Assembly: GCA_012959995.1 (NCBI GenBank)
Contig: DUCC01000014.1
Span: 735 to 64,734 of the forward strand
Source of the DNA: Acidimicrobiia bacterium
Lineage (GTDB): Bacteria; Actinomycetota; Acidimicrobiia; Acidimicrobiales; MedAcidi-G1
Direction: 5' to 3'
Length of the DNA: 64,000 nucleotides
This document shows positions 3,939 through 60,727 of this stretch, in pieces. Both the position numbers and the translations under genes were made by a program. Positions within the stretch are counted from its first letter, which is position 1, and the number at the start of each line of letters is the position of its first letter. The notes below the pieces were generated by a model. That model made no database searches. It was given only the letters and a program-made list of their open reading frames with translations, and had not been told where the DNA came from.

Positions 3939-5510
3939 ATGACTGAAACCCAACCCCAACGCAGCGGACGCTCCGGAGGACGAGCCGCCCGAGTAGCCGC
4001 CCGAGCCGCCGGACCCACCGAAGACGAGCGCGCCGTACGCCCCGGCTTCAGCGGCGGCGCTTACAAACCACTCACCGACAACGAATGCAAACAAGTCTAC
4101 GAAACCGCCTTAAACCTTCTCGAAGACCTCGGCATGGGCACCCCAGTACCAGAATTCATCGACGTAGTAACCGCCGCCGGCGGACACGTAGACAGCGACG
4201 GACGTTTACACTTTCCCCGCGCTGCAGTCGAACACGCCATCAGCACGGCCGCCAAAAAATTTACCTGGCACGGACTCGACGACGAAAAATCCATCGAAGT
4301 GGGCGGCGACGCCGTGTACTTCGGCACCGCCGGAGCCGCCGTATCAATCTACGAACACCAAACCCGCACCCACCGACACTCAACCCTGGCCGACGTCTAC
4401 GACATCGCCCGCCTCGTCGACACCTGCGAACACATCCACTTCCACGTACGCACCGTAGTACCACGCGACATGATCGAAGCCCCCGAACTCGACCTCAACA
4501 CCGCCTACGCCCTCGCCATGGGCACCACCAAACCCATCGGCACCTCATTCTTTCAACCAGAACACGTTTACGAAGCCGTAGACATGTGGGACGAAATGCT
4601 GGGCGGCAAACCCGGCTCCTTTGCCGAACGACCCTTCTGTGTAGCCAACAACACCTTCGTGGTGCCACCCCTGCGCTACGCCGAAGACGCCGCCCATTCC
4701 ATGGTGGCCCAAGTACGCGCCGGCGTACCCATCAACCTGCTCTCCGCCGGCCAAGCCGGAGCCACCTCACCAGCCGCCCTCGCCGGATCACTCGCCCAAG
4801 CCCTCGCCGAATGCCTCGCCGCCCTGACCTGCGTCAACCTGCTCAAACCCGGCCACCCCTGCGTCATGGGGCTCTGGCCCTTCGTCTCCGACCTACGCAC
4901 CGGCGCCATGACCGGCGGCTCCGGCGAAGAAGCCGTACTCAGCGCAGCAGCCGCCCAAGTAGCCAACTGGTTAGGCCTTCCCTCAGGAACAGCAGCCGGC
5001 ATGAGCGACTCCAAAATGCCCGACAACCAAGCCGGCCACGAAAAAGGGCTCACCGTAACCCTGGCCGGTCACGCCGGAGCCAACCTGGTTTACGAATCCG
5101 CCGGCATGCTGGCCAGCCTGCTGGCCTGCTCCTACGAAGCCATCATCATCGACAACGACATGCTGGGCGCCATCAACCGCACCCTACGGGGCATCGAAAT
5201 AACCCCCGAAACGCTCTCCGCCGAGGTCATCGCCAACGTCGTACACGGGCCCTCACACTTCTTAGGCCAAGACCAAACCCTGTCCATGATGCAAAGCGAA
5301 TACGTGTACCCCGAAGTAGGCGACCGAGTGAGCTCCAACGACTGGAACGACGCCGGCTCAAAATCCGTCGACGAAACCGCCAGAGAAAAAGTGGCCGAAA
5401 TACTCAGCAGCCACTACCCCAACCACATCAACCCCCAAGTAGACGCCGCCGTACGCGCCCGCTTCGACATCCGCCTCCCCCAAGAAGCCCTTAACCCCCA
5501 AAGCCCGTGA
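3939..5510 (+). CDS. MttB-family trimethylamine/betaine methyltransferase homologue without pyrrolysine
   Basis: A 523-residue member of the COG5598 MttB superfamily. The methanogen MttB proteins use a UAG-encoded pyrrolysine; this frame has no internal UAG, so it belongs to the non-Pyl branch that includes glycine betaine methyltransferases of the MtgB type. No corrinoid protein gene is in the window. The N-terminus is a basic Gly/Ala/Arg-rich tail (about 35 residues) before the barrel. A GGAGG site lies 6 bases before the ATG. It is the second gene of the operon with the dimethylglycine-dehydrogenase-like flavoprotein, which suggests demethylation of quaternary amines such as glycine betaine, but activity of aerobic non-Pyl members is largely unproven. 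Confidence 0.85.
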   Translation: MTETQPQRSGRSGGRAARVAARAAGPTEDERAVRPGFSGGAYKPLTDNECKQVYETALNLLEDLGMGTPVPEFIDVVTAAGGHVDSDGRLHFPRAAVEHAISTAAKKFTWHGLDDEKSIEVGGDAVYFGTAGAAVSIYEHQTRTHRHSTLADVYDIARLVDTCEHIHFHVRTVVPRDMIEAPELDLNTAYALAMGTTKPIGTSFFQPEHVYEAVDMWDEMLGGKPGSFAERPFCVANNTFVVPPLRYAEDAAHSMVAQVRAGVPINLLSAGQAGATSPAALAGSLAQALAECLAALTCVNLLKPGHPCVMGLWPFVSDLRTGAMTGGSGEEAVLSAAAAQVANWLGLPSGTAAGMSDSKMPDNQAGHEKGLTVTLAGHAGANLVYESAGMLASLLACSYEAIIIDNDMLGAINRTLRGIEITPETLSAEVIANVVHGPSHFLGQDQTLSMMQSEYVYPEVGDRVSSNDWNDAGSKSVDETAREKVAEILSSHYPNHINPQVDAAVRARFDIRLPQEALNPQSP

Positions 5511-50495: not shown

Positions 50496-53400
50496 CTACT
50501 TCCTATTTCGTCGCGGTTTTTTCTTTTTAGCTGGGCCCTTAGCCCGCCGTTCTGCCAACAACTCGGCGGCCCGCTCATCGGTTAAAGACTCTACCGAATC
50601 ACCACGGCCCAACGAAGCGTTGTACTCCCCGTCTGATACGTACGGACCGTAGTTTCCGTCTTTCAAAGTAATAATATTTCCGCTCTCTGGGTCCTTACCC
50701 AACTCACGCAACGGTGGCTTCGCCGCCCGACGGCCAAAAGCCTTGGGTTGAGCCAACAAAACCAAACACTCCTCAAGGGTGATGGTCAACAACCGCTCTT
50801 CATTATCAATATTGCGTGTTTCGTTACTTTTCTCCGCATGCTCTTTTTTGAGATACGGGCCAAACGGACCGTTCTGCACCGTAATGGGCACCTGGTCGTC
50901 TGGGTCCACCCCCACCGTGCGAGGCAAACTCAACAACTCCAAAGCATCCTCAAGGGTAATTCGTTCCAACGACATAGTCGAAAACAACGAAGCCATCTTG
51001 GGTTTAGGACCCTCCTCAACGGTGGCCAAACTGTTTAATTGTTCGAGTACATCGCCCACCCCGGTGAACGCCCCCAATGCTTCAACCAGACCATCCAAGT
51101 TTTCTTGACGATCTAACTCTTTGGCCCCTAACTCACGTCGATAGCCACCCACCGCTTCAGAAACCACCGCTCCGGGGCCTTGTTCGACCAAGCCCATCAA
51201 CTTTTTACGAAGCCGCAAAAAGGAGCGGACCCCCTTCAGCCCAGCCCCAGTAATCCCAGCTTTTTCGGCTTTTCCCATAGCGGTTAAAAAATCTACGTCA
51301 TGCCCGACCGCGAAATCAGAAATCTTATCCAAAGTCCCTTTGCCGATACCTCGCTTAGGAATATTGGCAATATGGCGCACCACCTTTTCATCTACCGGGT
51401 CAACAGCCAACCGCAGGTAAGACAACGCCGCCTTGATCTCTTTGCTTCGTAAGCCCACCCCCGTTAAAGCAATCAACTCTGGTGAACGCTTAATGGGGGC
51501 CGGCAAACGCCCCAAAGACACATAAGGACCAAACTTGCCTGACTTAGCAATAACCGGCAAACCAGACACCGGGTCATCACCCAGATGCTGTTCGGTGGGG
51601 GCATCCAAAAACTCCATAGCCGCCGCCACCGTAAGTTCATCAGGCGGAACGTCATCAGGAATCGAACGGCTTTCCTCACCTTTTTGCACATAAGTGCCAA
51701 ACCGGCCAAAACAAGCCACTACTTCTTGGCCACCATGAGCGCCCAAAACAACCGTGGACACCCCCTTGGCATCAATATCGCCCAAACGATGGGTGACCTT
51801 GTCGTGTAACCCTTCTTCACCATCCGTGCCGAAATAAAAATCACGCAACCAAGGCACCCGTTGCGCCTCACCTCGAGAAATTTCATCAAGGTCGTCTTCC
51901 ATAAGCGCCGTGAAGTTGTAATCAACCAACTTCGGAAAATGCGTCTCCAACAAAGTGGTCACCGCAAAAGCGCTAAAGGTCGGCACCAAAGCCGAGCCCT
52001 TCTTCCACACATAATCCTTATTTTGAATGGTCTCCATGATGGAGGCATAAGTAGAAGGACGGCCCACCCCGAGCTCTTCTAACTTTTTGATCAAAGACGC
52101 TTCAGTAAACCGTGAAGGTGGCTGCGTGGTATGACCCTCTGGAACAAGGTCAGCAATCTGAACGCGGTCCCCTTCACTGACCTGCGGCAAAACAACTTGC
52201 TCATTCTCGTCACTGCTACCGGCATAAACCTTGCGAAAACCAAGATGGCTAATAATGGTGCCGCTGGTAGCAAACAAGACCGGCACTTTGCTCACCATTT
52301 CAAGAGGATCTTCACCGGCTTGACCGGTAAGGCGAATCTGCACCGTCTCACCAACAACATCGGTCATCTGAGAAGCCACCGTTCGCTGCCAAATCATTTC
52401 GTAAATCATGGCTTCATCACGACTTACCTCAGCGGCCACCTCTTGAGGATCCCGAAACTGGTCGCCGGCCGGGCGAATAGCCTCATGAGCCTCTTGCGCA
52501 TTACGCACCTTATTTTTATAAGTCCGAGGGGCAGGAGGCAAATAGTCACTACCAAACTGATCAGCGATCACCGCCCGAGCAGCCCGCAAAGCCGTATCCG
52601 ACAAAGTGGTCGAATCGGTACGCATATAAGTGACGTAACCATTTTGATAAAGATTCTGAGCCGCCCGCATGGCCCGGCCCGACGACATTTTGAGTCGTCC
52701 GCCAGCAGCCTGCTGAAACGTCGAAGTAATAAAAGGGGCAGCCGGTCGGCGACTATAAGGCTTTGGCTTGACCGACTCCACGGTGAGCGACTCATTGGCC
52801 AAAGCGCTCGACAAGGCCACCGCCGCCGCTTCATCAAGCACCATTACCTCCGGCGAAGTAACCGCACCAGTGTCATCAAAATGTTGGCTACCGGCCACCC
52901 GGCGGCCCTTGACCTCAAGCAAAGCGGCCGAAAAAGTTTCTGGTGTTGGGGTCGTCAACTCGGCATTCAAACTCCAATACCCGGCCGACGAAAACGCCAT
53001 ACGTTCCCGTTCACGCTCCACCACAATGCGCGTAGCCACGCTTTGTACCCGGCCCGCCGACAAACGCGGAGCAATCTTACGCCACAGCACCGGCGACAAT
53101 TCAAAACCGTAGAGACGATCCAACAAGCGACGGGTCTCCTGCGCATCAACCAGACCCTGGTCGATTTCACGCGTATTATCTAACGCTTCAGTGATGGCCT
53201 TTTTAGTAATTTCATGAAAAACCATGCGATGCACCGGCACCTTGGGTTTCAACAAACTCAACAAATGCCAAGCGATAGCTTCTCCCTCGCGATCCTCATC
53301 AGTAGCCAGAAAGAGTTGATCAGCGCCTTTCAACAACTTGCGCAACTTGGCGATCTGTTGCTTCTTGTCGGGGCTCACCACATACAAAGGCTCAAAATCG

Positions 53401-53585
53401 TTTTCAACATCAATGCCGAGTTTGGCCCACTTAAAATGTTTATGTGATTCCGGCACATCGGCCGCCCGCATAGGGAGATCACGCACATGGCCAATCGAAG
53501 ACTCCACCTGGAAGCCTTTACCTAAATACCCGGCAATAGTTTTTGCCTTAGCCGGGGACTCAACAATTACGAGAGCGTAAGACAT
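50496..53585 (-). CDS. topA: DNA topoisomerase I with an inserted UvrD 2B-like domain
   Basis: A 1029-residue type IA topoisomerase that relaxes negative supercoils. TOPRIM domain: VESPAKAKTI (8-17) and the acidic triad in TDEDREGEA (Asp96, Asp98, Glu100). The catalytic Tyr is Tyr320 in YVTYMRTDST. From about 603 the actinobacterial C-terminal repeats (GRFGTYV, GKFGPYVS, GPFGPYL, GNYGPYVS) begin, ending in a Lys/Arg-rich tail. Between the second and third repeats, at about 697-858, lies a foreign block: EIKAALSYLRL, IPKRGIGKGTLDKI and RQENLDGLVEALGAF match the 2B region of UvrD/PcrA, with no helicase ATPase motifs. The start ATG follows the nhaA stop directly (TAAATG). Confidence 0.95.
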   Translation of the reverse strand: MSYALVIVESPAKAKTIAGYLGKGFQVESSIGHVRDLPMRAADVPESHKHFKWAKLGIDVENDFEPLYVVSPDKKQQIAKLRKLLKGADQLFLATDEDREGEAIAWHLLSLLKPKVPVHRMVFHEITKKAITEALDNTREIDQGLVDAQETRRLLDRLYGFELSPVLWRKIAPRLSAGRVQSVATRIVVERERERMAFSSAGYWSLNAELTTPTPETFSAALLEVKGRRVAGSQHFDDTGAVTSPEVMVLDEAAAVALSSALANESLTVESVKPKPYSRRPAAPFITSTFQQAAGGRLKMSSGRAMRAAQNLYQNGYVTYMRTDSTTLSDTALRAARAVIADQFGSDYLPPAPRTYKNKVRNAQEAHEAIRPAGDQFRDPQEVAAEVSRDEAMIYEMIWQRTVASQMTDVVGETVQIRLTGQAGEDPLEMVSKVPVLFATSGTIISHLGFRKVYAGSSDENEQVVLPQVSEGDRVQIADLVPEGHTTQPPSRFTEASLIKKLEELGVGRPSTYASIMETIQNKDYVWKKGSALVPTFSAFAVTTLLETHFPKLVDYNFTALMEDDLDEISRGEAQRVPWLRDFYFGTDGEEGLHDKVTHRLGDIDAKGVSTVVLGAHGGQEVVACFGRFGTYVQKGEESRSIPDDVPPDELTVAAAMEFLDAPTEQHLGDDPVSGLPVIAKSGKFGPYVSLGRLPAPIKRSPELIALTGVGLRSKEIKAALSYLRLAVDPVDEKVVRHIANIPKRGIGKGTLDKISDFAVGHDVDFLTAMGKAEKAGITGAGLKGVRSFLRLRKKLMGLVEQGPGAVVSEAVGGYRRELGAKELDRQENLDGLVEALGAFTGVGDVLEQLNSLATVEEGPKPKMASLFSTMSLERITLEDALELLSLPRTVGVDPDDQVPITVQNGPFGPYLKKEHAEKSNETRNIDNEERLLTITLEECLVLLAQPKAFGRRAAKPPLRELGKDPESGNIITLKDGNYGPYVSDGEYNASLGRGDSVESLTDERAAELLAERRAKGPAKKKKPRRNRK

Positions 53586-60631: not shown

Positions 60632-60727
60632 GGAGGTGTCTGAGTACCTGGTGGGCTCCCCCGTCTTCAAAGCGGGCGGGACGGGCGACCCCCGTCCGGC
60701 GGGTTCGATTCCCGTCCACCTCCGCCA
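60632..60727 (+). tRNA. selC: tRNA-Sec (anticodon UCA)
   Basis: A 96-base tRNA including an encoded CCA, close to the 95 bases of E. coli selC. Anticodon loop CTTCAAA gives UCA (60667-60669) on a CCCGT/GCGGG stem. A long variable arm (GGACGGG with CCCGTCC) and the T arm GCGGG-TTCGATT-CCCGT follow. Acceptor GGAGGTG pairs with CACCTCC; the eighth pair expected in tRNA-Sec would be T with C. It reads UGA as selenocysteine with SelA/SelB, which are outside the window. Confidence 0.93.

Follow-up and report, generated by a model that had tools for sequence, protein, structure and literature searches.

What is a block of about 165 residues resembling part of a DNA helicase doing inside the C-terminal tail of a topoisomerase I, where did it come from, and what might it do for the enzyme that carries it? 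The question was raised by topA, a gene on the minus strand of the 64,000-nucleotide stretch of acidimicrobial DNA analysed here (hereafter, the window). A first reading of this stretch, to which we refer as the original prediction, had proposed that residues 697-858 of the product, encoded at 51012-51497, correspond to the 2B subdomain of UvrD/PcrA helicases. Papers are cited by PMC number, in each case for the part of their text that was accessible.

The topoisomerase and its inserted domain

By its family profiles, the product of topA is a bacterial DNA topoisomerase I of type IA with a predicted relaxation activity. It matched TIGR01051 (topA_bact) with 767.9 bits, above the equivalog cut-off of 456.4, and its whole-protein model superposed on Mycobacterium smegmatis TopI (6pcm) with Z 37.6 and 53% identity. 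PF01131 has a single place in the source assembly (2.03 Mb, 96.7% complete), and no second type IA topoisomerase was found there. The catalytic part is normal and includes, from residue 320 within the Topoisom_bac core, the sequence YMRTDS, which we take to be the catalytic tyrosine motif of type IA topoisomerases. Genes for an MFS transporter, thymidylate kinase and a DNA polymerase III delta-type subunit lie 3' of topA on the same strand, in what looks like an ordinary housekeeping setting. The features of the gene, in the order in which they are translated, are as follows.

50496..53585, minus strand: topA, DNA topoisomerase I, 1029 aa (TIGR01051 1.2e-230; PF01131 2.6e-108)
53208..53573, minus strand: Toprim domain, residues 5-126 (PF01751 6.8e-22)
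51852..53165, minus strand: Topoisom_bac catalytic core, residues 141-578 (PF01131)
51606..51758, minus strand: first C-terminal repeat (D5-like), about residues 610-660 (modelled as four strands plus a helix)
51510..51599, minus strand: N-terminal half of the second repeat (D6-like), comprising strands 1-3, residues 663-692, and GKFGPYVSLG (model)
51009..51503, minus strand: inserted block, about residues 695-859, 165 aa, PcrA/UvrD 2B subdomain (empty site elsewhere, sequence, fold)
51015..51464, minus strand: residues 708-857, superposing on the 2B of PcrA (PcrA 385-543; VIA-align)
51339..51359, minus strand: GIG loop, residues 743-749, PKRGIGK (alignment of insert and PcrA)
50925..51008, minus strand: C-terminal half of the second repeat (D6-like), comprising strand 4 and the helix, residues 860-887 (model)
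50751..50924, minus strand: third repeat (D7-like), about residues 888-945 (Pfam, model)
50535..50717, minus strand: fourth repeat (D8-like), about residues 957-1017, then a short basic tail (Pfam, model)

Pfam Toprim_C_rpt matched the tail of TopA in five stretches; the labels D5 to D8 follow the mycobacterial numbering and were assigned by the order of the repeats. The insert had been expected to sit between two C-terminal repeats. In the whole-protein model it was found instead inside the second of them, between strand 3 (residues 686-691) and strand 4 (residues 864-866), so that this repeat is interrupted and the insert is no linker between repeats. The residues directly preceding it, G[KR]FGPYVSLG, are near-invariant in alignments of the family. 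The predicted extent of the block stood, and comparison with the empty site of other families (see below) widens it slightly, to about residues 695-859. As the whole-protein model has a pTM of 0.51 (mean pLDDT 78.2), it does not fix the placement of the insert against the rest of TopA.

Sequence comparisons identified the insert in several ways. When it was searched against its own genome, the only other match found was PcrA, at 40% identity and E 6.9e-27 (query positions 2-141 of 145). Within the whole of TopA, the NCBIfam profiles uvrD (1.6e-13) and pcrA (8.5e-13) matched only over their 2B part, i.e. model positions 381-516 and 383-516, respectively. Searches of the PDB, which the original prediction had singled out as informative, were significant, PcrA being retrieved at E 4.8e-13 by the insert alone and at 1.9e-27 by a profile of 11 inserts (profile positions 21-157 of 180), which also retrieved E. 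coli UvrD (2.9e-22) and Rep (4.3e-13). The strong match to Pfam UvrD_C that had been looked for besides did not materialize, scores of 20.2 bits with the whole protein and 22.4 bits with the insert alone falling below the gathering score of 25.6. This Pfam model also takes in motor parts of the helicase, and a lone 2B therefore covers little of it (110-151 of 350 model positions matched with the insert alone).

The predicted structure was in line with these matches. The insert, modelled as 185 residues with 33 sequences (mean pLDDT 78.7), superposed on residues 384-543 of PcrA (2pjr) with Z 15.7 and an rmsd of 2.8 over 147 residues. Its 22 best entries, at Z 10.2-15.8, were all UvrD, PcrA, Rep, UvrD1, AddAB or AdnAB, the next entry dropping to Z 3.6. 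In the whole-protein model, residues 708-855 gave Z 16.3 and an rmsd of 2.5 over 146 residues against the 2B of PcrA (VIA-align). The superposition that had been proposed as a check thus returned the 2B fold at Z 15.7-16.3, as against at most 3.6 for unrelated folds. Foldseek values were weaker and pointed to the same protein family, the 17 best rows (E 2.6e-4 to 9.7e-3, query TM 0.54-0.66) being all UvrD, PcrA or Rep. Compared with the 2B of PcrA (2pjr, 3pjr), the insert has the whole fold in common, at 30-31% identity to 2pjr, and keeps the GIG loop; it differs in lacking the motor domains, in the decay of the residues that face the motor hinges and in being borne by a topoisomerase. No Walker A (P-loop) or DExxD pattern was found in a pattern search of the insert, which bears out the predicted absence of a motor motif; by its motor motifs, the block does not belong with the SF1A helicases, and its interpretation as the remnant of a motor was rejected. 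Sequence, profiles, predicted fold and phylogeny all agree with the 2B identity first proposed, and we regard it as virtually certain that the insert is a complete PcrA/UvrD 2B subdomain. TopA is, in other words, a topoisomerase I with a captured helicase subdomain.

Two further observations were made elsewhere in the window. A selenocysteine tRNA lies at 60632-60723 on the plus strand (Rfam RF01852, 63.4 bits, gathering score 47), and the source organism may accordingly make selenoproteins. A match to Rfam PYLIS_3, the mttB pyrrolysine insertion sequence, was found at 5001-5100 on the plus strand inside an open reading frame (3939-5510) that encodes an MTTB-family protein of 523 aa without an in-frame stop, probably a methyltransferase of the non-pyrrolysine kind.

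Distribution, origin and selection

Among 37 genomes of the family to which the window belongs (f1, its own genome included), TopA was found in 33, some of them ending at contig ends, and all 33 carried the insert; the assemblies of the carriers range from about 1.3 to 2.9 Mb. No TopA match was found in G004, G006, G011 and G029, which are 69-85% complete. When residues 648-935 of TopA were searched against 24 genomes representing 24 other families of the order, the site was empty in 23, the two flanks adjoining on one contig and either overlapping or lying at most 33 bases apart; the remaining genome (G057) yielded only a weak piece of TopA. The collection of TopA homologues suggested at the outset thus set the family apart from 23 of the 24 other families sampled. 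Samples of the class (296 genomes, four of f1) and of the phylum (296 genomes, one of f1) yielded no insert outside f1 among the matches listed, the criterion being that both flanks and the insert be spanned; as the listings cover the stronger matches, a much-changed or differently sited insert could escape them.

A scan of 84,980 species, each represented by a single genome, with two short peptide patterns returned 75 loci: 33 TopA with the insert (L034-L066), 36 helicases and six TopA matched at the right flank only. The record titles of L034-L066 name Acidimicrobiales, Acidimicrobiaceae, Acidimicrobiia, Candidatus Microthrix, Actinobacteria or Actinomycetota, and the marine actinobacterium MedAcidi-G1 (L063) is among the carriers; 32 of these 33 named carriers bear titles that mark them as metagenome-assembled genomes. 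The 33 named records and the 33 TopA of the family are sets that probably overlap. The family f1 is mostly uncultured, is probably that of MedAcidi-G1 and would be mainly marine. The scan revealed no second origin of a 2B in TopA, although two short patterns could miss one. An apparent wider spread of the insert (L067-L108, from cyanobacteria and others) was discarded on the basis of sequence marks in the open frames, 36 of these 42 loci being helicases and six right-flank matches to TopA.

The original prediction had cautioned that topA and uvrD fragments might have been joined by mis-assembly; this is excluded by junctions that recur in all 33 TopA found in the family and in the 33 named records. 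More generally, an artefact (chimeric assembly or chance similarity), for which the metagenomic provenance of nearly all named carriers might speak, is refuted by these shared junctions, the frame that is open throughout, the E-values and the fold match, and can be put aside with next to no reservation.

When 33 inserts were placed in a tree with 72 2B domains of helicases, they formed one clade with support of 100/100. They stood beside the PcrA of the same family, on a branch supported at 97/72. For this reason, a pcrA of the lineage itself is the most likely donor, at a time before the family diversified, even if the support of that branch, together with the finding that the family's PcrA constrained as a clade of their own were not rejected (p 0.217), counts against the explanation that we consider best. 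According to this explanation, a segment encoding a complete PcrA 2B would have been copied once into topA in an ancestor of the family, would have landed in the second C-terminal repeat, in the loop that links its strands 3 and 4, and would since then have been inherited largely vertically under purifying selection. Largely vertical inheritance after the insertion is well supported: 21 of 28 splits were common to the tree of the inserts and that of the rest of TopA, and a single conflict between well-supported splits of the insert and TopA core trees concerned L061. L066, which contains X letters, was used neither in the alignment nor in the tree of the inserts; the whole-protein alignment omits it as well as L064 and the incomplete L050, L051, L052 and L058, and the tree comparison omits L052, L058 and L066. 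Before the helicase tree was built, L165, L091, L097, L098 and L099 were skipped as short matches and 18 mostly cyanobacterial helicases were thinned.

Two observations concern individual records in these comparisons. The insert region of G005 (L028) was 44% identical to the window's, as against 61-64% for G001, G003 and G007 of the same genus g1, and its GIG loop resembles that of genus g2; either genus g1 is mixed or a transfer may have taken place. Two cyanobacterial PcrA reading frames (L071 and L080) measure 1146 and 1163 aa, compared to 792-851 aa in four other cyanobacterial frames, and harbor a block of about 300 residues after GDADQ with a Cys start and a His-Asn end. Both of these ends are features of inteins, and the block looks like one from its sequence.

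The insert is constrained, and it evolves faster than its surroundings. Omega of residues 693-868 ranged from 0.07 to 0.26 in 14 close pairs (Nei-Gojobori) and exceeded that of residues 869-1000 in 13 of them. In 32 named loci (the near-identical L034 aside), identity to the window's sequence was 28-58% in the insert, compared to 67-78% at residues 869-1000 and 46-73% at residues 590-692. A single origin of the insert followed by purifying selection has, in our judgment, very high probability. Among the named loci, L035 is peculiar in that its residues 141-580 are only 46% identical to the window's, compared to 57% in its sister L036, both being 58% identical in the insert, as if this record contained a local frameshift or assembly error.

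To follow which residues were kept, we used 49 positions at which 90% or more of 47 Acidimicrobiales PcrA have the same residue. Over these positions, the PcrA residue is retained in 52% of the cells of the inserts, and retention is uneven: 83% in the GIG loop (six positions) versus 30% and 21% in the two hinges to the motor (five and six positions). Out of 44 like-sized runs of such positions, only the GIG loop and one other reached 83%. The predicted conservation of the GIG motif was confirmed for the window's insert and, with both glycines, for 26 of the 33 inserts, the first glycine being present in all 33 and the second lost in seven. A lysine immediately follows the motif (K749) in 28 of 33 inserts, against none of 21 PcrA of the family and none of 47 Acidimicrobiales PcrA (inserts versus family PcrA, Fisher 1.3e-10 for rows that are not independent). 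The position equal to UvrD T422 is an alanine in 19 of 33 inserts. The loop varies most in genus g4, in part of which it is degenerate, and it is one residue longer in L035, L036, L037 and G023, which read KREGLG or KRDGLG in place of KRGIG. Net charge averages -8.0 in the inserts and -13.6 in the PcrA of the family, and is +1 in the window's insert.

Candidate roles of the captured 2B

In actinobacterial TopA, the C-terminal repeats capture one single strand where DNA is underwound. The C-terminal region of M. smegmatis TopI has a higher affinity for single-stranded DNA than the active site has, and is proposed to capture one strand at the outset. A 2B borne by the second repeat of TopA would grip the duplex at the edge of a bubble, the single strand being held by the repeats, which would favour junctions and keep TopA on DNA between relaxation cycles. 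Such a grip would be analogous to the role proposed for basic insertions and lysine tails in other actinobacterial TopA, such as the positively charged insertion in D6 of M. smegmatis TopI (PMC7192597) and the lysine repeats to which the processivity of Streptomyces TopA is attributed (PMC7398561). In monomeric UvrD and PcrA structures, as described in the accessible text of PMC13238157, 2B holds the duplex where single-stranded and double-stranded DNA meet, and the GIG motif touches it. In Deinococcus radiodurans UvrD, a 3-4 fold loss of DNA binding is reported for G424T and no significant loss for G426T (PMC3797037); retention of the glycines in the inserts (the first more than the second) follows the same order of importance and counts in favour of a duplex anchor, as do the better preservation of the GIG loop than of the hinges to the motor and the lysine that follows the motif in most inserts. 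Several observations weigh on the other side. UvrD T422 contacts a backbone phosphate (PMC5973834), and the frequent alanine at this position, the average acidity of the inserts, the loss of the second glycine in seven of them and the loose loop of genus g4 count against a role in DNA binding, while the faster change of the insert than of the rest of TopA counts against an anchor. The contact of GIG with the duplex has also been described as autoinhibitory in the helicases, where GIG residues lie near a 2B-2B interface (PMC13238157), such that conservation of the motif does not single out DNA, and its proline and glycine may be kept for folding. On balance, and by analogy, anchoring to duplex DNA is the main role that we tentatively favour for the insert, at somewhat less than even confidence.

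The original prediction had put forward DNA binding or contact with RNA polymerase; pairing with PcrA is a third possibility that it did not name. The 2B-2B interface makes this contact a real alternative, as the surface with GIG lies at it: M. tuberculosis UvrD1 becomes active when two 2B subdomains dimerise, the GIG region lying close to where they meet, and E. coli UvrD when it is covalently dimerised by design through that position (PMC13238157). The 2B of TopA could pair with that of the cell's own PcrA, recruit the helicase and perhaps relieve its autoinhibition by 2B, so that strand separation or R-loop removal would act together with supercoil relaxation. The insert being closest to the PcrA of its own lineage is compatible with such pairing, as is a loop position, aligned by eye as the one before the equivalent of R421, which lies at the interface in E. 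coli UvrD, at which 20 of 30 genomes (L027 and L031 included in these loop counts) have a lysine in the insert and an aspartate or glutamate in PcrA, which would be complementary. This pairing was not significantly associated across genomes, however (Fisher p 0.10, with related rows), and coevolution of the loop with PcrA was rejected on that account; the lysine would suit DNA binding equally, and no contact between TopA and PcrA is described in the titles and abstract openings of the literature searched. A redox-controlled dimer through a cysteine, as in UvrD1, is unlikely with 23 of 33 inserts devoid of Cys. We hold recruitment of PcrA to be improbable as the role of the insert. A bolder version, in which the PcrA-derived 2B would be a captured regulator that recruits PcrA, frees it from autoinhibition and makes with it one unit clearing R-loops and negative supercoils, appears less probable still; were it true, bacteria would have an equivalent of helicase-topoisomerase pairs, operating through a copied helicase dimer interface.

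The insert might also be a foldable block that chance fixed in a surface loop able to tolerate it, where clean loss is rare and folding is maintained. Its faster evolution than the neighbouring repeats, the degenerate GIG loop in part of g4 and the decay of the hinge residues that faced the helicase motor would all be expected of such a passenger. Its presence in all 33 TopA of the family, across assemblies of about 1.3 to 2.9 Mb, and its low omega speak against it, as does the GIG loop having outlasted nearly all other runs of PcrA-fixed residues, even though glycine and proline may serve folding there. A kept GIG surface fits the pattern of conservation, as read from the aligned sequences, better than does a passive role, which we consider unlikely.

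A last possibility is that the insert binds the beta flap tip or a beta prime region of RNA polymerase, tying TopA to the elongating enzyme. To our knowledge, the C-terminal domains of E. coli topoisomerase I are without any 2B. They already interact with RNA polymerase nonetheless (PMC4678816), which counts against this reading. E. coli TopA has been observed together with polymerase engaged in transcription (PMC9352719), and the 1B and 2B of UvrD crosslink to the beta flap tip and to the N-terminal part of beta prime, as cited in PMC8318588, both of which would favour such a contact; according to the latter paper, binding of PcrA to the elongation complex needs its C-terminal Tudor domain, which the insert lacks. 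Attachment to polymerase through the insert is in our opinion quite doubtful. Anchoring to duplex DNA stays the reading to which we lean.

Relation to known systems and implications

Reverse gyrase, whose topoisomerase half was among the matches of the whole-protein model, also combines a helicase and a type IA topoisomerase in one chain. There, a whole helicase motor is fused N-terminally, whereas TopA carries only a non-motor SF1 subdomain, and carries it inside a C-terminal repeat. Among topoisomerases, Mycobacterium TopI (6pcm, M. smegmatis) is alike in its core and Topo_C_Rpt repeats D5-D8 and also has an insertion in D6; the insertion of M. smegmatis is described as positively charged (PMC7192597), while the one in the window's TopA is a folded 2B of about 165 residues. 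The 2B-2B dimer of M. tuberculosis UvrD1 (9dci, 9des) has the same 2B fold (Z 12.1 and 10.2) and offers a model of a possible 2B-2B contact, except that both of its 2B belong to helicases and are joined by Cys451 (PMC13238157), and that most TopA inserts have no Cys. Other modules in the tails of type IA enzymes, including Topo_C_ZnRpt, basic stretches and the SWIB domain of Chlamydia TopA, also tune binding to DNA or partners (PMC9369019, PMC12445093). The words 'UvrD' and 'helicase' were absent, by word search, from the main text, as accessible, of a survey of type IA C-terminal modules (PMC9369019). No description of a 2B insertion in a topoisomerase I was found in the literature searched (titles and abstract openings, with few subscription papers and no bioRxiv), which agrees with the initial impression that such a fusion is previously undescribed.

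The finding indicates that the tails of topoisomerase I can accept a folded domain within a repeat. The 2B subdomain has so far been studied as part of helicase motors, and the role of its GIG motif, whether in gripping the duplex or in an autoinhibitory contact that is replaced by dimerisation, has been newly re-opened (PMC13238157). Here, 2B has left its motor for an essential enzyme, and the residues that faced the motor have decayed while the GIG loop was kept. With two copies of 2B in one cell, one in TopA and the other in PcrA, an autonomous function of the subdomain becomes directly testable by comparison. Present in every TopA found in the family and under selection, the insert suggests that these bacteria have gained a new way of anchoring or partnering an essential enzyme.
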